DNA of 31,685 nucleotides. It comes from Holophaga sp. Its GTDB lineage: Bacteria; Acidobacteriota; Holophagae; Holophagales; Holophagaceae. The notes beneath the pieces are model-generated. The model was not told where the DNA came from, made no database searches, and saw only the letters and a program-made list of their open reading frames with translations. Positions 1 to 7,831 of the stretch are shown one piece after another. How positions within the stretch are numbered: position 1 is the first letter of the stretch; each line of letters begins with the position of its first letter. Both the position numbers and the translations under genes were made by a program. The DNA is taken from the NCBI GenBank assembly GCA_031292735.1, contig JARLGP010000107.1:1-31685 (forward strand), given 5' to 3'.

Positions 1-262
1 CAAACCCGCAACCCGACATATTTCCCCGACTCCCACTGGTGATGATGACAAGCTGGCTCGGTCGCTCATTGGAACATGCCACCTATCTTTGACTTTCGCA
101 GAAAGCCGGCCTGTTTCCGTTTGCCAACTCCCAGTGGTGATGATGACAAGCCGGTTCGGCCGCTCATTGGAACCATAGCCACCAGAGCTTTCCCATCGCA
201 GCATGCCCCGAAACGCAGCAACCATGCACCTTTCGGTGAGTCGGCGCCCCGCTTGGGCCTAA
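1..262 (-). mobile_element. third integron cassette, 5' part (cut by window edge)
   Basis: Reading on the minus strand, this cassette begins at base 262, just inside the GTTAGGC core of the neighbouring attC, and runs off the left end of the window. Its first ~25 bases resemble the starts of the two cassettes to its right. It holds two good copies of the dispersed repeat at 31-75 and 129-173. Open frames exist on both strands, but none has a recognisable protein family or a convincing ribosome binding site, so I call no gene here. Confidence 0.55.
31..173. repeat. dispersed cassette repeat, copies R1 (31-75) and R2 (129-173)
   Basis: Two 45-bp copies lie 98 bp apart. Both carry the core GGTGATGATGACAAGC followed by a CGGCTCGG-like block, and both end in GCTCATTGGAAC. 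They differ at only a few positions. The same family recurs in the cassette at 1087-1902. On the plus strand the core would read GDDDK; on the minus strand it would read a serine-rich peptide. I see no proof that either is translated. Confidence 0.7.
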
Positions 263-383
263 CGCCAGCATTGACCGGCACGGCCCCTGACGCATGACCG
301 GCGGAGGATGGACGATTGAATGATAACGCCAGCCGGTTGGGGCAGAAGCGGGGCCGTGTCCGGCGTCGAATGCAAGGTTAGGC
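257..383 (-). other. integron attC recombination site (of the brnTA cassette)
   Basis: On the minus strand the site opens with GCCTAAC (383-377) and closes with GTTAGGC (263-257), matching the RYYYAAC and GTTRRRY outer boxes of attC. The ends fold back as an imperfect palindrome: GCATTCGACGCCGG near one end pairs with CCGGTCAATGC near the other, and CACGGCC pairs with GGCCGTG. The length of 127 bp is like the long attC sites of chromosomal integrons. It lies 33 bp downstream of brnA, where the attC of that cassette should be. The site at 1081-1207 has the same length, near-identical outer thirds and a variable centre. Confidence 0.88.
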
Positions 384-416
384 AAGATGGCCCTGAAATA
401 ATCCCTTAAACCCGCA

Positions 417-677
417 TCAGGACTGGATTGGGCGCGATCGCTCCGCGGGCTTATCGGCTTTGGGACCGCTCAGCCAAGCCAACCGAAGGTGTTTTTGAGA
501 AGCCGCACATTCTCGGAGGTAAAGGTTGATTAAGGTTTGATAGGGAATCGCAGTCTCTTCGGCCAATGACTTGAAGTACACAAGGGTTTGCTCATCCAAC
601 CGAATGGTAACCTGCCGTTTGAGCAGCTTGGCATACGGGTTGGGCTGCCCAGTGGAGAAATCGTAATGCTTTCTCAT
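417..677 (-). CDS. brnA: BrnA-type antitoxin
   Basis: This 86-residue protein resembles BrnA antitoxins. It has a basic, aromatic N-terminus starting MRKHYDFSTG, then the beta strand VTIRLD (about residues 23-28) typical of ribbon-helix-helix dimers, then a helix pair ending in YQTLINLYLRE (about residues 46-56). In the family the N-terminal part wraps and inhibits the BrnT ribonuclease, and the ribbon-helix-helix domain binds the operon promoter. The start was chosen because its ATG overlaps the brnT stop codon as ATGA, implying translational coupling; longer upstream starts would lie inside brnT. The order toxin-then-antitoxin is normal for brnTA. The gene ends 33 bp before the attC site, as expected for a compact cassette. 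Identification is by motif recognition only. Confidence 0.85.
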   Translation of the reverse strand: MRKHYDFSTGQPNPYAKLLKRQVTIRLDEQTLVYFKSLAEETAIPYQTLINLYLRECAASQKHLRLAWLSGPKADKPAERSRPIQS

Positions 678-973
678 GCCTTGAACCTCCCGAAATAAAC
701 CTGCCGTTCTTGGCCATCCGCTTTTCGAGCTGAAATGATTCGAATTGTTTTTCCTTCCGCCCGGTAGCAATGGCAGACAATCAGCACCCGCAAAGAGGAA
801 CTGAGCCCCATAAGGATGAATCGATCTTCCGAAAGAGAATGGTCTGGATCATCAATGAGAATTGCGTTTTCATCGACGAAGACAGTAGAGGCGTCATCGA
901 AGGAAACACCATGGCGCCGAAGATTGCTGGTGCTCTTCCCGGGATCCCATTCGAAACGAAGGTCGTTCGTCAT
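674..973 (-). CDS. brnT: BrnT-type ribonuclease toxin
   Basis: This 99-residue protein matches BrnT, a small RelE-fold ribonuclease toxin. The diagnostic N-terminus FEWDPGKSTSNLRRHGVSF lies at about residues 7-25, where the family has an F-x-WDxxKxxxNxxKHGVSF pattern. It is followed by an acidic stretch with a DDPDHS turn and the C-terminal IRIISARKA and ER..Y region (about residues 77-93). The toxin is expected to cleave RNA and slow growth when BrnA is lost. I chose the start at 973 rather than an upstream start at 1117, because the longer frame would run into the palindrome and the attC-proximal leader. No strong ribosome binding site precedes it. A TACAAT box sits so close to the ATG that the message could be leaderless. 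Confidence 0.85.
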   Translation of the reverse strand: MTNDLRFEWDPGKSTSNLRRHGVSFDDASTVFVDENAILIDDPDHSLSEDRFILMGLSSSLRVLIVCHCYRAEGKTIRIISARKADGQERQVYFGRFKA

Positions 974-977
974 CCCT

Positions 978-995
978 ACATTGTAGTTACAATGT
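978..995. promoter_or_regulatory. palindromic brnTA operator/promoter
   Basis: An inverted repeat with 8-bp perfect arms and a 2-bp centre, ACATTGTAGTTACAATGT, ends 4 bp upstream of the brnT start codon. On the minus strand its inner half contains TACAAT, a good -10 box. BrnA-type antitoxins repress their own operon by binding inverted repeats overlapping the promoter, so this is the expected position. I see no clear -35 box; TGGCGA at the right distance is a weak match. Confidence 0.65.
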
Positions 996-1080
996 CGGTT
1001 CTTCGCCAGAGGCATGCATAAACTTGTGCCTACTGTGCGCCTGATCACGGTCTGATGCGGTGCTACGGCGCCCCGCTCGG

Positions 1081-1207
1081 GCCTAACGCCAGGATTGACC
1101 GGCACGGCCCCAGCCACGCGATCGGAGGAGAACAGCAGACTGAATGATGACGGCGGCTGGTTGGATCACAACCAGGGCTGTGTCCGGAGTCGAATCCAAG
1201 GTTAGGC
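1081..1207 (-). other. integron attC recombination site (of the first cassette)
   Basis: This is a second 127-bp attC. On the minus strand it opens with GCCTAAC (1207-1201) and closes with GTTAGGC (1087-1081). Its outer arms are nearly identical to those of the site at 257-383, with TCGACTCCGGACAC opposite CCGTGCCGGTCAAT, while the central part differs. High similarity between attC sites of one array is a hallmark of chromosomal integrons, in contrast to the mixed sites of mobile integrons. Confidence 0.88.
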
Positions 1208-1902
1208 AAGTACGGCCTTGATCTTTTTGCTGGAACCCGCGGCGCCATTGGAGCTGGGACGATTTGATGGCCCATCTATGAGCGGCTGCATTGACGAGGA
1301 ACCTGCTCCCATGGGTGATGTTGACAAGCCGGCTCGGCCACTTCGCTTGAGGACGCCTGCTCGGACTTGACCGACAAAGATCTCTCCTCCGGGCCACGGC
1401 CCTGGATTGGCTTGCGCCTGACGAATGATTGTCAGCATCCTTGCAGTCTTCGGCACCACGATTGTTTTTGCGCCTGGCGGATTTCCAGGCGGCCGGATGC
1501 ACATTTGGAACCGACTTCCGCTGGTGATGATGACCGGAATCTTTGACGCCCACTGCCAGACGGACGACTCAAACCTGCAGCCTGAAACCATGACCGTACA
1601 GCCCTTCACCGGGGTGCGCCTGACGAAGGCCACATCACACACCACGGTGATGGCCAGCCCTGGCCGCCATACCGACTCCCAAGGGTGATGGTGACAAGCC
1701 AGCTCGGCCAATGAATTGTGGACGGCCATCGGTCCCAACAAGCAACCGGCTCGGTGACGCCTGCCGATTTCCAGTGGTGATGATGACAAGCTAGCTCGGC
1801 CGCAAATTACTGGAACGACAGATTGGCCTGAACTGGCGATGCATGCACCGAAGCGCCAAACCATTGTGAATAGCGGTGCTACGGCGCCTCGGCTGGGCCT
1901 AA
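1087..1902 (-). mobile_element. first integron cassette, no convincing gene
   Basis: This 816-bp cassette lies directly next to attI and would be the most recently inserted one. It is bounded by the attI-like core at 1897-1903 and the core of the attC at 1081-1087. Several open frames exist on both strands, up to about 220 codons on the minus strand, but they overlap the attC, lack a recognisable fold or a good ribosome binding site, and consist largely of the degenerate repeats. I therefore treat the cassette as non-coding or as carrying a decayed or unrecognised product. Confidence 0.6.
1307..1816. repeat. dispersed cassette repeat, copies R3-R6
   Basis: Copies related to those at 31-173 start at 1307 (R3), 1517 (R4, only the first 18 bp), 1677 (R5) and 1769 (R6). 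R6 is nearly as good as R1/R2 and also ends in TGGAAC. Start-to-start distances are 210, 160 and 92 bp, against 98 bp for R1-R2, which suggests a decayed tandem unit of about 95 bp with lost copies. A partial copy, CAAGCAACCGGCTCGG, is visible near 1740-1754. Confidence 0.6.
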
Positions 1903-1903
1903 C
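1897..1903 (-). other. attI-like integron insertion core
   Basis: The minus strand reads GTTAGGC here, preceded by TTAGC. This is a lone core site with no matching palindromic partner nearby, which is what separates attI from attC. It lies 449 bp upstream of the integrase start codon, at the integrase-proximal edge of the array. The exact extent of attI, including the accessory integrase-binding boxes, cannot be fixed by eye. Confidence 0.6.
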
Positions 1904-2351
1904 GCTAATTGGACATCACCACCCAAACCTGAAAGAACAGGCCAATCCGAGTCCCTTCACGTGCCAACCTTACCGCATTAGGAATCTCCAAGCGAGAAGT
2001 CCTTACTCGGTATGCAACGTCATTACAGTTTTTAACTAAATTCAACCTTACGCAATCCAGGCGAAGGGAGATGATTAACACGGCAATTATGTATTCTTCC
2101 GTGCTGGTGGCCAGGAGCAATAGGCGGCATGGACGGATGGGGAACTGGCTGGATCGGGGCAGGTCCACAGGATTGTTTGAAACCAAATCGGAGGACTCGG
2201 TAGTCAACCGGCCAGAAAGACGGGTGCTTAAGAATTCAGATTAGCTCTTGACGAACGCTAAAATCTTGTTATTTTTTCGCTTAAAATATCTTTCCCTTTT
2301 ACAGAATACCTTCGATGGTCCTTGGGCCCTGCCCCCACATTCCGGTGATGG
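1904..2351. other. integron leader between attI and intI, no assigned gene
   Basis: This stretch separates the cassette array from the integrase and should contain the rest of attI, the outward cassette promoter Pc on the minus strand and the intI promoter. It is AT-richer than the surrounding chromosome, most clearly at 2010-2100 and 2240-2310. An open frame of 100 codons on the minus strand (1905-2207) matches nothing I know and would abut the attI core, so I do not call it a gene. I could not find a convincing Pc by eye. Confidence 0.5.
2248..2275 (+). promoter_or_regulatory. candidate intI promoter
   Basis: TTGACG (2248-2253) is followed after 16 bp by TATTTT (2270-2275) in an AT-rich stretch about 75 bp upstream of the integrase start. 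The -35 box is good and the -10 box is weak. No LexA-like CTG-N10-CAG palindrome is visible, so SOS control, common for proteobacterial intI genes, is not supported here. Confidence 0.35.
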
Positions 2352-3371
2352 ATGATAGCTTCCAACTCTCCCGCTCCTCGAACGACGCCGCCGGTGGCTA
2401 CGCCGGCACCTCCGGCCCCAAGGCTCCTGGATCGGGTCCGCACCGAGATCCGCGCCCGCCACTACAGTCTACGTACGGAGGAGACCTATGTGGACTGGAT
2501 CAAGAGGTTCATTCTCTTCCACCACAAGCGGCATCCCGACGGCATGGGCCTTCGCGAAGTGGAGGCATTCCTCTCCTACCTGGCCTCGGAACGCCATGTG
2601 GCTGCCTCCACTCAAAACCAGGCCAAGGCCGCGCTCTTGTTTCTGTACAAACGAGTCCTGGGCATGGAACTGCCCTGGCTGGATGGGGTCATCCAGGCGA
2701 AAGCCTCCCGGCGACTGCCGGTGGTCCTCACTCCGGGGGAGGTGCGCAGGCTCCTGGACCAGATGAGCGGGGTCACGGCCCTGGTCGCCCGGCTGCTCTT
2801 CGGCACGGGCATGAGGCTATTGGAGGGGCTTCGGCTCCGGGTCAAGGATCTGGACTTCGACCGCCACGAGGTGATCGTCCGCGCCGGCAAGGGGGACAAG
2901 GACCGGGTGACCATGCTCCCCGATTCGCTGGAACCTCTCGTCCGGAAACACCTGGACAAGGCCAAGGCGCTCCACGACCGGGATCTGGAGGACGGCTTCG
3001 GCGAGGTGTGGCTGCCCGGGGCTCTGGGGCAGAAATACCCCCAGGCCGGCCGGGCCTGGGGCTGGCAATGGGTATTCCCCTCCGCCACCCGCTCGGTGGA
3101 CCCCAGGACGGGCGTGGAACGCCGCCACCACCTGCACCCGGAAACGATTCAACGGGCGGTACGCACTGCGGCACGCTCGGCGGAACTGGTGAAACCGGTC
3201 ACGCCCCATGTGCTGCGCCACAGTTTTGCCACGCACCTGCTCCAGAACGGCCACGATATCCGCACCATCCAGGAACTGCTGGGCCACAAGGATGTGGAAA
3301 CGACCATGATCTACACGCACGTGCTGAACCGCGGGGGCCGTGGGATCACCAGCCCCCTGGACCAGCTGTGA
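2352..3371 (+). CDS. intI: integron integrase IntI (tyrosine recombinase)
   Basis: This 339-residue tyrosine recombinase catalyses attI x attC and attC x attC exchange. It resembles IntI throughout: the N-terminal SAM-like domain contains [18 protein letters not shown] (about 37-54), followed by [11 protein letters not shown] (121-131). The catalytic set is complete: R155 in GTGMR, K180 in AGKGDKDR, H286 and R289 in [10 protein letters not shown]312 in LLGHKD and nucleophile Y321 in MIYTHV. The extra segment that distinguishes IntI from XerC/D, running from [13 protein letters not shown] to the RRHH motif (about 221-260), is present. This segment lets the enzyme bind folded attC hairpins. The N-terminus is a proline-rich extension of uncertain start with no clear ribosome binding site. 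The gene looks intact and divergent from the cassette array, the normal integron layout. Confidence 0.95.
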
Positions 3372-3386: not shown

Positions 3387-4808
3387 CTACCACAGCCGCA
3401 CGGTGCCCAGCATCCCGTCGGGGTCGAACCGGGCCTTCAGGGCTGCTCCCGCGGCCTTCTGCGCGGGACTGGTGTAGGCGTCGAAGGAGGCCTGGTTGTG
3501 CGGGCCTACGCCATGCTCGGCGCTGTAGCTGCCGGCGAAGTCCTGCACGGCGATCTGGTAGATCCGGCGCTGCACCTGGGGCACCAGCTGGGCGGCGGGA
3601 ATAGGCGAATCCTGCTCCCGCCACACCAGGTTCAGGTGGGTGCCGCCATCGCCCCAATGGCCGAAATCACAGACCCGGAAGCAGGGATGCTCGGCCTGGA
3701 GCCAGGCCTTCACGGCATCGGTGAAGGCGGGCAGCCGGGATCGCGGCACGGCCAGGTCGAAGGCCAGGACTTTGCCCTCCTCGCGCAGGCTCTCGGAAAT
3801 GTGGTGGCGCAGGGCCCAGAACTCTTCGGGCTTTCCCATGATCACGTCGGTGATCTCCTCGCCATGCGCTTCCAGGTGGTCGGAAAGGGCCGACTCCAGC
3901 AGGTCGGCCAGGTTCAGGGCGCTCTCCGGAAGGGTGGAGGCCAGTTCCACCAGGACGGTGTACGGGGCCAGGACGCCTGCGCCGAAGGGGTTGCGCAGCG
4001 GCGCGGAGCCGCTGAACACCGGGCCCAGGGCCTCGGCCGACATGACTTCATAGGCGGCCAGCAGTTCGGACAGGCCATGCTCCAGGGCCTGCAGCAAACC
4101 CAGGGCGGCGGGACCATCCTGCAGGCCCACCAGGGCCGTGGCCCGCTGCCGGGGCAGGGGTGCCACCTGCAGCACCGCGCCGGTGATGACCCCGAACACC
4201 CCGGAGGTGCCGGTGAACAGCTGCTTGAAGTCCAGGCCGGTGTTGTTCTTGCGCAGGGCGGTCAGGGCGTCCACCACGCTGCCGTCGGCCAGCACCACCT
4301 CCAGCCCCAGCAGGTTGTGGCGCACGTCGCCGTAGCGCAACAGCCGGGCGCCCCCGGTGTTGGCGGCGATCATGCCACCGATCTGGGGGTCGGCCGGAAG
4401 GTCCACGGGAAAGGTGAGCCCATGCTCGGCCAGGGCCTCGTTCAAGGCGCTGAGCAGGACGCCGGCGTCCACTTTCACGGTCCGGTCCAGCACATCCACG
4501 TCCAGCCGCCGGTTGAGCCGCTCGAGGCTCAGCACCACCATCCGGCCGCTGTCATCCGGCACCGAGCCGCCCACCAGGCCGGTATTGGCCCCCTGGGCGA
4601 TCACCCGCAGCCCGTGCTGCCGGCAGAAGGCCAGCACCTGGGCCACCTGCCCGGTGCTGGCGGGACGGGCCGCCAGCAGGGCCTTGCCATGGCCGTAGCG
4701 CCACCCGGTTTCATACTTCTCCAGATCCGGGGGCTCGGTCAGCACGGCCCCGGGCCCGAGCAGGGTGCTCAATTCCTGTTGGAGCATGGCAGGTGTGGTC
4801 ATGGTCAT
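3387..4808 (-). CDS. FAD-linked oxidase, probable D-2-hydroxyglutarate dehydrogenase
   Basis: A 473-residue flavoprotein of the GlcD/D-lactate dehydrogenase/D2HGDH family. The FAD-binding PCMH domain occupies about residues 20-215, with AQGANTGLVGGSVP (71-84) and PQIGGMIAANTGG (141-153). The C-terminal FAD-oxidase domain carries the metal-binding GHWGDGGTHLN (383-393) and SAEHGVG (429-435), as in enzymes that oxidise D-2-hydroxyacids. Its ATG overlaps the stop of the upstream HglS-like gene as ATGA, so the two are coupled. HglS-type enzymes release 2-hydroxyglutarate, so the expected reaction is D-2-hydroxyglutarate to 2-oxoglutarate with electrons passed to an acceptor. Glycolate or D-lactate oxidation cannot be excluded from sequence alone. 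It converges on intI with a 15-bp gap and no clear terminator. Confidence 0.8.
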   Translation of the reverse strand: MTMTTPAMLQQELSTLLGPGAVLTEPPDLEKYETGWRYGHGKALLAARPASTGQVAQVLAFCRQHGLRVIAQGANTGLVGGSVPDDSGRMVVLSLERLNRRLDVDVLDRTVKVDAGVLLSALNEALAEHGLTFPVDLPADPQIGGMIAANTGGARLLRYGDVRHNLLGLEVVLADGSVVDALTALRKNNTGLDFKQLFTGTSGVFGVITGAVLQVAPLPRQRATALVGLQDGPAALGLLQALEHGLSELLAAYEVMSAEALGPVFSGSAPLRNPFGAGVLAPYTVLVELASTLPESALNLADLLESALSDHLEAHGEEITDVIMGKPEEFWALRHHISESLREEGKVLAFDLAVPRSRLPAFTDAVKAWLQAEHPCFRVCDFGHWGDGGTHLNLVWREQDSPIPAAQLVPQVQRRIYQIAVQDFAGSYSAEHGVGPHNQASFDAYTSPAQKAAGAALKARFDPDGMLGTVRLW

Positions 4809-5866: not shown

Positions 5867-7831
5867 TCAGAGGCCAGTGGCCGCTTTCAACCCTTCCAGG
5901 CTGCAGATCTTGCCGGCGAAGGCGCTGGCGGCGACGGTGGCCGGGCTGGCCAGCCACACCGGGCCCGGACCGCTCCGGCCCGGGAAATTGCGGTTGAACG
6001 AACCGATGGTCACCTGGTTGGTGCGGGTGGAGATTCCCGGGCCGGCATGGATGCAGGCGCCGCAACCGGGGCTGATGACCCGGGCGCCGGCCTCTTCGAA
6101 GGCGCCGACCCAGCCATGCTCCAGGGCATGGCGGCGCACGTCCTCGCTGCCCAGCTGGATGAACAGCTGCACCTGGAGCGGAAGCATCACCCGATGGTCC
6201 AGGGCCCAGCGCACCACTTCGTAGACCCGCTCGATGTCGTCCCGCTTGCCGCCGGAACAGCTGCCCACGTACGCGATGTCCACGGCCACGTCCCGCTCCA
6301 GCCGGTCCAGCGCCAGGGCGTTGCCCGGGTCGCCCGGGGCGGCGAGCATGGCCCCCACCGTGTCGCAGTCCACGTCCACCACGCAGGCGTACTCGGCGCC
6401 GGGATCGCTTTGCATCCAGGGCTCCAGCGCCACCGCGACGCCCCGCCGCTCCTGGAGGAAGCGCCGGGTCTCGGCGTCCGGAGCGATGATTCCGGTGAGG
6501 GCGCCCAGCACCGGCGCCATGTTGGTCAGGGTGGCCCGTTCGTCGGTGGCCATGCCGGCCAGGGCCTCGCCCTGGAATTCCAGGATGTGCCCCGCCAATG
6601 CGCCATGGTGCAGCGGCACGAGGGTCATGAGATGCAGCGCCAGGTCCTTGCCGTACACGCCGGGGCGCAGTCTGCCATGCAGCCGCACCAGGCAGCTGGG
6701 CGGAACGGTCAGCCGCATGTCGCCGTTGACCCAGGCGTTGGCCAGGTCGGCGGCGTCCACCCCGAAGGCCAGGGCGCCCAGGGCGCCGGAATGGCTGGCG
6801 TGGGCATCGGTGCCCAGCACCACCTGGCCGGGCAGCACGTAGCGGTCGGCCATGAGCACGTGGCTGATGCCTTCGGCGGCTCCGTCCGGCAGGGTTCCAT
6901 GCAGGTGGATGTCGTGGGCCGCGCAGAAGGAATCCTGGAAGGCCTGGAGCCGCCGCACCACTTCCGGGAACCCGGGCTGGCTGTCCTCCTGGAACTGGCC
7001 GACGAAGCTGAGGTGGTCGCGGAAGGCGACGATGTGGCCGGGATCGGCGAAGGGCGCCTGCTCGGGCAGGAACATGTCGAGCATGGCGGCGGCCAGGTTG
7101 GTGGCGGTTTCGTGGGAGTAGCGCCAGTCCGCCCGCACCAGCAGGCCGTCGCCTGGGGCCACGGCCGCCAGGCCCCGGGCCGGGGCGTAGAGGTCGGTGA
7201 TGGCGGCCCGGGCCAGGGTCTTTTCGCCCAGGGTCATGGGCCTGGGGGCCCGCGACGGCACCGGGAGCACGGCGGTTCCGGTGAGCCGGGCATGGGTGTA
7301 GCCGAACAGCCCGCCGTTGCGGATGATCTCGGCGGTGAACGGGTCTTCGCCGCGGGTGAACAGCTCCATGGGCAGCGGCTCGCCCCGCTCCAGCAGGTCG
7401 AGGATGCCCAGGTCGGTGCTGGTGAGCAGGCCCAGGTCATGGCAGTGCCGGAGGTATTCCGGATCGAAGCTCTTGGCCAGCACCAGCCGGATCCCGGCGG
7501 CGAATTCGGCGAACAGGGCGGCCTCCCGGGAACCGTGGGTGCCGTGATGCTCTCCGGAGACCACCACCTGGAACCCGCCCCGGACCACGGCGCCTTCGCT
7601 GATGGGGAAACTGCCGCCGCAGGCCAGGCCCAGGTAGGGGAAATCCTCCAGCCGCTCGCCGAAGTAGTAGCAGACCCAGGTGGGGGCGATCTCATCCACC
7701 GAGACTTCATCGCGCAGGGGCAGCGCCGCCGCGAGGGGAAGATCTTCCCCACGGATCTGCCTCTGGATCTTGGAGGGATCCTGGGACAGGTAGAGCACGC
7801 GACCCGGCAGCTTGATGCAATCCATCGCCAT
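5867..7831 (-). CDS. domain-permuted aconitase/isopropylmalate-dehydratase family protein
   Basis: About 654 residues combining both halves of an aconitase-type hydro-lyase in reversed order. A LeuD-like swivel domain comes first (about 1-190), with GEHHGTHGSREAALFAEF carrying the substrate-binding Ser-Arg. The LeuC-like catalytic part follows (about 200-654). Cluster ligands are visible in GSCSGGK (C525) and in SPGCGACIHAGPG (C590, C593); GTDAHASHSGALGALAFG and NRNFPGR are further LeuC-type motifs. Ordinary aconitases place the swivel domain last. The substrate is not deducible. Linkage to a 2-oxoadipate enzyme makes a homoaconitase-like or C5/C6 tricarboxylate or hydroxyacid substrate plausible. 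The start is uncertain: ATGs at 7831 and 7825 both precede the conserved KLPGRVLYL; a further ATG at 7873 adds an unlikely tryptophan-rich leader. None has a good ribosome binding site. Confidence 0.75.
   Translation of the reverse strand: MAMDCIKLPGRVLYLSQDPSKIQRQIRGEDLPLAAALPLRDEVSVDEIAPTWVCYYFGERLEDFPYLGLACGGSFPISEGAVVRGGFQVVVSGEHHGTHGSREAALFAEFAAGIRLVLAKSFDPEYLRHCHDLGLLTSTDLGILDLLERGEPLPMELFTRGEDPFTAEIIRNGGLFGYTHARLTGTAVLPVPSRAPRPMTLGEKTLARAAITDLYAPARGLAAVAPGDGLLVRADWRYSHETATNLAAAMLDMFLPEQAPFADPGHIVAFRDHLSFVGQFQEDSQPGFPEVVRRLQAFQDSFCAAHDIHLHGTLPDGAAEGISHVLMADRYVLPGQVVLGTDAHASHSGALGALAFGVDAADLANAWVNGDMRLTVPPSCLVRLHGRLRPGVYGKDLALHLMTLVPLHHGALAGHILEFQGEALAGMATDERATLTNMAPVLGALTGIIAPDAETRRFLQERRGVAVALEPWMQSDPGAEYACVVDVDCDTVGAMLAAPGDPGNALALDRLERDVAVDIAYVGSCSGGKRDDIERVYEVVRWALDHRVMLPLQVQLFIQLGSEDVRRHALEHGWVGAFEEAGARVISPGCGACIHAGPGISTRTNQVTIGSFNRNFPGRSGPGPVWLASPATVAASAFAGKICSLEGLKAATGL

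Follow-up and report, generated by a model that had tools for sequence, protein, structure and literature searches.

The left end of a 31,685 bp contig assigned to Holophaga sp. (JARLGP010000107.1 in assembly GCA_031292735.1; the whole of this stretch is referred to here as the window) carries an integrase gene beside repeated recombination-site-like sequences, and raises the question of whether these form a complete integron, how long its lineage has held it and what its cassettes contain. An earlier note, made from the letters of the sequence, had read the locus as an intact chromosomal-type integron with a resident cassette array. The present analysis leads to much the same answer: the locus is almost certainly the integrase end of a sedentary chromosomal integron in a Holophagaceae-like acidobacterium. 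The evidence comprises the parts of the locus, their order and orientation, family membership, attC structure with covariation, selection on the integrase gene, and neighbouring genes that are collinear in one sister species.

The integrase

2352–3371, + strand: intI, integron integrase of 339 aa (TIGR02249, catalytic residues, 2a3v alignment, dN/dS against L011)

The IntI product matches TIGR02249 (integrase_gron) at 471.8 bits, against a cut-off of 265, and covers all 315 model positions; its scores against XerC (147 bits) and XerD (140 bits) are well below the respective cut-offs of 335 and 330. The earlier note had described a complete enzyme with six catalytic positions and the segment specific to integron integrases, and both features are present. 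R155, K180, H286, R289, H312 and Y321, which we take to be the catalytic residues, are all in place. An alignment with 2a3v, an integron integrase of known structure, spans residues 26–339 (E 2e-89) and takes in residues 205–256, the additional segment by which an integron integrase is recognized; XerA, in the same listing, leaves that stretch unaligned.

Phylogeny places the protein in the same way. In a 70-row tree, 64 IntI rows, that of the window included, are separate from the six remaining recombinases, four of which are of Xer type, and the window IntI falls in a clade of 30 rows that is otherwise made up entirely of Acidobacteriota (support 99/83). The rows came from 63 of 80 loci, with L071–L080 not among them; rows that contained stops or whose aligned span fell short of about 280 were excluded, and L011, the closest locus, was lost in this way. 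The midpoint root serves for drawing only, and a long-branch warning applies to L069 and the Xer rows. Profile scores and tree thus agree in grouping the enzyme with integron integrases rather than with XerC/D; a grouping with XerC/D was what the earlier note had named as refuting its reading.

The nearest DNA locus to the window IntI is L011, from a Holophagaceae bog metagenome-assembled genome (MAG), referred to below as the sister, at 85% identity; a closer protein (P0001, 94% identity) is known from a metagenome only. Comparison of intI with L011 over 268 codons gives a dN of 0.088, a dS of 0.83 and a dN/dS of 0.107, from which it follows that the gene has been kept by selection; intI is under purifying selection.

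The attC sites and the direction of the array

1081–1207, − strand (+ strand being the bottom strand): attC of cassette 1, 127 bp (model R1, 48.5 bits, E 4e-11)
257–383, − strand: attC of cassette 2, 127 bp (model R1, 44.5 bits on the + strand, E 5e-10)

Both sites had been proposed in the earlier note, which would have been refuted had a covariance model missed them. They were recovered independently by such a model, R1, trained on 23 attC sites from seven Geothrix loci and two loci of other Holophagaceae, and on none from the window; these are 23 of the 24 listed non-window sites, an identical copy in L026 having been omitted. With filters off and both strands of the 31,685 bases searched, the two sites were found at E 4.4e-11 and 5.1e-10, and the third best match reached only E 0.19. 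Both attCs are exactly 127 bp and are bounded by identical GCCTAAC/GTTAGGC cores. Their arms are near-identical, as had been claimed; the likeness falls to 80% when taken across 153 nt. In a joint alignment of 10 sites, 10 of the 26 predicted pairs have changed on both sides with pairing kept. Each site has the R boxes, the imperfect palindrome and the extrahelical bases on one arm that characterize an attC.

In the bottom strand of an attC, the extrahelical bases are expected to lie on the 3′ arm. Here the bulged bases (1, 2 and 1) are confined to the 3′ arm of the + strand, which identifies that strand as the bottom one; the array therefore extends from intI toward the left and is read on the minus strand, a direction which the earlier note had not given. 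The R1 scores agree, with 44.5 bits on the + strand of 257–383 against 6.3 on the − strand. Folding as DNA, which the earlier note had suggested as a check, was informative in part: the bottom strands do fold better than shuffles (z −2.5 at 1081–1207 and −5.0 at 257–383), but so do the top strands (−3.2 and −4.6), so folding leaves the strand undecided.

Across 37 loci, R1 gave 92 attC matches at E < 1e-9 in 17 loci, 23 of them training sites. The 90 strong matches in intI-bearing loci are all upstream of intI and on the + strand, and the attCs found are all of one lineage-specific type. The window shows two such sites, and relatives have as many as 14 or more within 10 kb.

The attI site

1897–1914 (core 1897–1903), − strand: attI, consisting of the GTCCAATT motif, 3 nt and the core GTTAGGC (homology to Holophagaceae loci)
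1904–2351, no strand: attI–intI spacer, 448 bp, 48% GC (distances, alignment, GC)

A lone attI-like core had been noted next to intI, and comparison with relatives upholds it. Among 10 relatives, picked for a visible core upstream of intI, GTCCAATT stands 3–4 nt ahead of the first core, exact in eight and with one change in two (L018 and L021). The window carries the motif at the matching position, adjoining intI as in other integrons, and on this homology the lone core at 1897–1903 is that of attI, with its crossover point between 1903 and 1902. That core can also be placed as the junction of attI with the first cassette, because the leader of the other two cassettes (see below) follows it.

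By this arrangement, IntI would recombine the folded bottom strand of a cassette attC with the double-stranded attI, crossing over at 1903/1902. Since recombination would be with attI, new cassettes would enter beside intI and older ones would be shifted to the left; events between two attCs would release cassettes as circles. Capture, excision, replicative resolution, promoter-driven expression and stabilization by toxin–antitoxin genes may all be expected here from known integron biology. Promoters for both intI and the array would be expected in the spacer.

Chromosomal setting, origin and activity

The best relatives of the window are Holophagaceae, and integron platforms are common in this family: IntI scores above the cut-off in 46 of the 77 genomes of the sister MAG's family and in none of 14 control genomes. 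Nine window genes to the right of intI were compared with L011; seven of them occur there after intI in unchanged order, within a stretch of about 10 kb, with 63–94% protein identity. This collinearity argues that the integron is a settled part of the chromosome of its lineage, and bears out the sedentary array of the earlier note; the vertically kept neighbourhood is documented in one sister species only. Outside the Holophagaceae, L063 and L070 each have one weaker match to a neighbouring gene of the window.

A mobile integron, lately acquired via a plasmid or transposon, would account for the GC content of the cassette region (0.52–0.59, against 0.69 in the flank), and also for the finding that the window's neighbours do not occur beside intI in other Holophagaceae loci, within the up to 10 kb, often less, that these loci offer. 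Such an origin is nevertheless extremely improbable: the identities of the seven collinear genes lie around the 85% of IntI itself, positions 1–2351 (array and spacer, with intI outside the query) had no match among 72,556 plasmid records, and all attCs are of the lineage's own type.

The second rival is a former integron, now inactive, with decayed intI or sites and an array that no longer changes. Another Holophagaceae MAG (L072, 2498–4025) has its intI in pieces, with the first part missing and an attC remaining upstream, and is a decayed integron of the same kind; a match in L072 (3208), lone and adjoining the broken intI, was rejected. Decay in a related locus lends some colour to this rival, as do features of the window's own spacer, set out below. 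We consider it very unlikely, in view of an intact IntI with six catalytic residues and a dN/dS of 0.107, and of two attCs which retain their cores, stem and extrahelical bases.

Several points nevertheless weigh against a sedentary, working integron. The spacer is about 220–260 bp longer than in the 10 relatives and more AT-rich than theirs; a promoter scan of it was near chance (3 against 1.3, SD 1.3), with no candidate standing out, and a search for a good LexA box found none, the best matches being two mismatches off. Two of the nine compared neighbouring genes have no match in L011. No strong attC was found by R1 in 20 of the 37 loci, many of which are short contigs, and Rfam gave no match, whether or not it includes an attC family not being established. 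The strand of the attCs cannot be assigned by folding alone, and the array is visible in the window only at its integrase end. That the integron functions, and that its IntI recombines attI with attC, is something we infer from known systems.

Taken as a sedentary chromosomal integron, the element is ordinary in kind and well formed, and extends a known platform to a further Holophagaceae-like lineage. Any added interest may lie in its cassettes, whose common frame and R repeats suggest a shared scaffold.

Cassette contents

Leftward from intI, on the minus strand, the array consists of cassette 1, cassette 2 with brnT-brnA, and cassette 3, which reaches the window edge. The part-visible third cassette and the want of a recognizable gene in cassette 1 go beyond the earlier note.

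1087–1902, − strand: cassette 1, 816 bp, read as gene-less (cores, repeats, no protein-family match)
263–1086, − strand: cassette 2, 824 bp, brnT-brnA toxin–antitoxin (cores; PF04365, PF14384)
1–262, − strand: start of cassette 3, cut by the window edge, with two copies of repeat R (core, repeats)
674–973, − strand: brnT toxin gene (PF04365, 95 bits)
417–677, − strand: brnA antitoxin gene (PF14384, 32 bits, cut-off 26.1)

In cassette 2, brnA overlaps brnT by ATGA, and the two domains, each above its Pfam cut-off and both in one operon, identify a BrnTA type II system; NCBIfam gave no match for either product and PADLOC reported nothing for BrnT or BrnA. A perfect 8 bp inverted repeat with a 2-base spacer lies upstream of brnT (978–995). 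The brnT of the sister has a different 7 bp inverted repeat at its start (L083, 2417–2431). By analogy with other toxin–antitoxin operons, the repeats near both genes are likely to be autoregulatory operators, and brnT-brnA is named among cassettes which carry their own promoter (PMC8876359). Between window and sister, BrnT has only 50% protein identity, and the silent sites are saturated. The cassette probably resists loss, because its loss would free the toxin.

Cassettes 1 and 3 share a motif of about 40 nt, repeat R, present in five full copies and one partial copy.

25–64, no strand: repeat R copy 1, cassette 3 (repeat families D3/D4)
123–162, no strand: repeat R copy 2, cassette 3 (repeat families, pattern)
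1301–1340, no strand: repeat R copy 3, cassette 1 (repeat families, pattern)
1511–1534, no strand: repeat R partial copy, 24 nt, cassette 1 (family D4; missed by the longer pattern)
1671–1710, no strand: repeat R copy 4, cassette 1 (repeat families, pattern)
1763–1802, no strand: repeat R copy 5, cassette 1 (repeat families, pattern)

Three full copies and the partial copy are thus in cassette 1, and two are in the visible part of cassette 3. A 24 nt pattern of R has five matches in the window, where none is expected (100 shuffles). A second short motif, GCGCCTGRCG (family D6), lies between the R copies of cassette 1 at 1412–1426, 1468–1482 and 1614–1628; it can begin small hairpins, and recurs in the modules of the sister.

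Beyond the window, the sister MAG has four R copies on contig C82, around its brnTA cassette, and a DNA search with cassette 1, which is the stronger evidence on its distribution, found matches in one of the 77 family genomes, that of the sister. The R pattern gave one single match in those 77 genomes (G055) and none in four other genomes, and a stricter pattern gave none in 396 genomes of the phylum; absence elsewhere is not firm, because all three pattern searches missed the sister copies, which have an extra A. Viral contigs held no match for R and no relative of P0122, one of three metagenome ORFs (P0121–P0123) that apparently contain R and are of the same cassette type as 1 and 3. The start of P0122 resembles cassette 3 at the peptide level and its end resembles cassette 1 (by eye); as a query, P0122 found P0123 and itself only.

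Other explanations of R were rejected. As a coding repeat, it occurs in three frames, and its changes have no third-position bias (by eye). As an RNA hairpin, it offers four weak pairs with no covariation in seven copies, and no conserved hairpin; cassette 1 folded as RNA has z values of −1.35 and −0.56. As a genome-wide repeat, it has 14 matches in the sister at up to three mismatches, four of these being the array copies on C82; all three matches with at most two mismatches are on C82, and the other 10 have three mismatches each, against three matches of a reversed control.

Cassette 1 has no protein-family match and no codon-position signal, and cassettes 1 and 3 are read as putative members of one family of gene-less cassettes. 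An open frame of 220 aa is nonetheless present (1202–1864, − strand); it spans most of cassette 1 and ends, as genes of ordinary cassettes do, with a stop inside the attC core. If cassette 1 were protein-coding, this would explain why the last ~46 residues are common to the three metagenome ORFs at 72–96% identity, and why these agree gaplessly with each other over the last stretch (by eye). Such database ORFs are, however, preselected for openness. The GC content of the frame by codon position (0.56/0.58/0.62) lacks the dip at position 2 seen in brnT, brnA and intI, R is present in all three of its frames, and its product has no Pfam match at E 1; a coding role is thus unlikely. In other systems, gene-less cassettes act as promoters (PMC11014356) or yield regulatory RNAs (PMC8876359).

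Shared cassette ends

1872–1896, − strand: leader of cassette 1, 25 nt (mean identity over five leaders, 0.79)
1056–1080, − strand: leader of cassette 2 (leader identity test)
232–256, − strand: leader of cassette 3 (leader identity test)
1208–1252, − strand: trailer of cassette 1, before attC, 45 nt (mean identity over four trailers, 0.585)
384–428, − strand: trailer of cassette 2, before attC (trailer identity test)

Across the three cassettes of the window, the first 25 nt past the attC or attI core are 76% alike, and later 25 nt steps are 35–48% alike. The leader belongs to each cassette and not to the preceding site, because it sits across the crossover from attC. In 11 other arrays (83 sites; 12 of the 97 R1 matches were set aside as weak, incomplete or the only one in their locus), the same measure is 0.20–0.48, and 0.27–0.32 in all but three. 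The five leaders of window (three) and sister (two), which precede three kinds of cargo, have a mean identity of 0.79, which none of 20,000 random draws from those arrays reached (largest 0.42), although this null treats cassettes as unrelated, whereas three of the five leaders are from R-bearing cassettes; the others are from one brnTA cassette and one sister cassette with an ORF of unknown type. The four trailers have a mean identity of 0.585, again unmatched in 20,000 draws (largest 0.46). The trailer signal is the weaker, the two trailers of the window being 40% alike over 25 nt without gaps.

Between the brnTA cassettes of window and sister, trailer, attC and leader together are 79% alike over 237 nt. 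With the ends so alike while the BrnTs are 50% identical, the cassette frame has outlived its cargo. The sister's brnT is preceded, at a distance of about 100 nt, by an R module. These likenesses could mean that cassettes of this lineage are built on a common gene-less scaffold of 5′ leader, R-repeat body, 3′ trailer and attC, into which genes such as brnTA enter; the proposal is doubtful, and is offered tentatively. One alternative runs in the opposite direction, the cassette ends having been homogenized by gene conversion, and another is that leader and R are regulatory signals. If the scaffold is real, entry into it would be one concrete route of cassette genesis, and the lineage would lend itself to the study of cassette formation in nature. 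PMC8352920 refers to a native mechanism by which cassettes arise.

Two further accounts of the ends were set aside. As an extension of the attC stem, leader and trailer add no stem in 216 nt folds (z 0.06 and −1.83). As a common genomic repeat, the trailer yielded, over six genomes, one extra copy in the sister and a three-mismatch match in G071, where the control also had one.

Several further observations come from related loci. A 41 bp trailer-like stretch of 85% identity in sister contig C121 (L129, 10625–10668) has a degenerate core, lies directly behind a panB-like gene and adjoins no attC; it may be what is left of a cassette at a secondary site. Several adjacent cassettes of an uncultured Holophagaceae array (L018, 4033–5953) have nearly the same start (by eye), and look like recent cassette duplications. 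On sister contig C81, a Y2 transposase domain (PF04986), which we take to be IS91-like, and a tyrosine recombinase (L126, 785–3618) adjoin a half attC (3543–3618), an arrangement that insertion of an element into the attC loop might have produced. A second half attC (L127, 8996–9066) begins at the same attC position, equivalent to 309 in the window. In L127, a gene resembling an FAD-dependent oxidoreductase (by eye; 7026–7706) ends abruptly at the first R module, which may be an array boundary, a rearrangement or an assembly join.

Comparison with known systems

The statement in the earlier note that integrons outside the Proteobacteria are sparsely characterized needs tempering. The published attC model for Acidobacteria is presumably the work of Ghaly et al. 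That covariance model dates from 2021 (PMC8352920), and a 2021 review lists integrons in 14 phyla, Acidobacteriota included (PMC8618304). Among the literature matches listed, no paper describing integrons in Geothrix or Holophaga was found, those of the wider searches having neither genus in the title; one match, as listed, concerns class 1 integrase abundance in sewage (PMC4482650). The Acidobacteria attC group belongs to the same phylum as the window, and its attCs were modelled by structure and sequence (PMC8352920).

Homogeneous attCs are a feature of Vibrio superintegrons, and the two attCs visible in the window are of one type. No Vibrio counterpart of repeat R was found. Vibrio superintegrons have gene-less cassettes beside gene cassettes, as in the window, and a toxin–antitoxin locus is named as a neighbour (PMC11014356). 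The promoters of Vibrio cassettes were measured (PMC11014356). The described brnT-brnA cassettes (PMC8876359) carry cargo of the same toxin–antitoxin family as cassette 2.

The closest systems are the chromosomal integrons of Geothrix and other Holophagaceae (L001–L022, L024, L026 and others). These differ from the window in their shorter attI–intI spacers, in having little or no common 5′ leader, and, the sister apart, in the genes beside intI, none of the window's neighbours having been found there within the up to 10 kb, often less, that these loci offer. They resemble it in an IntI 67–74% identical to that of the window, in an array divergent from intI, in the GTCCAATT motif of attI, and in attCs of about 124 bp with the same pattern of stem and bulges.

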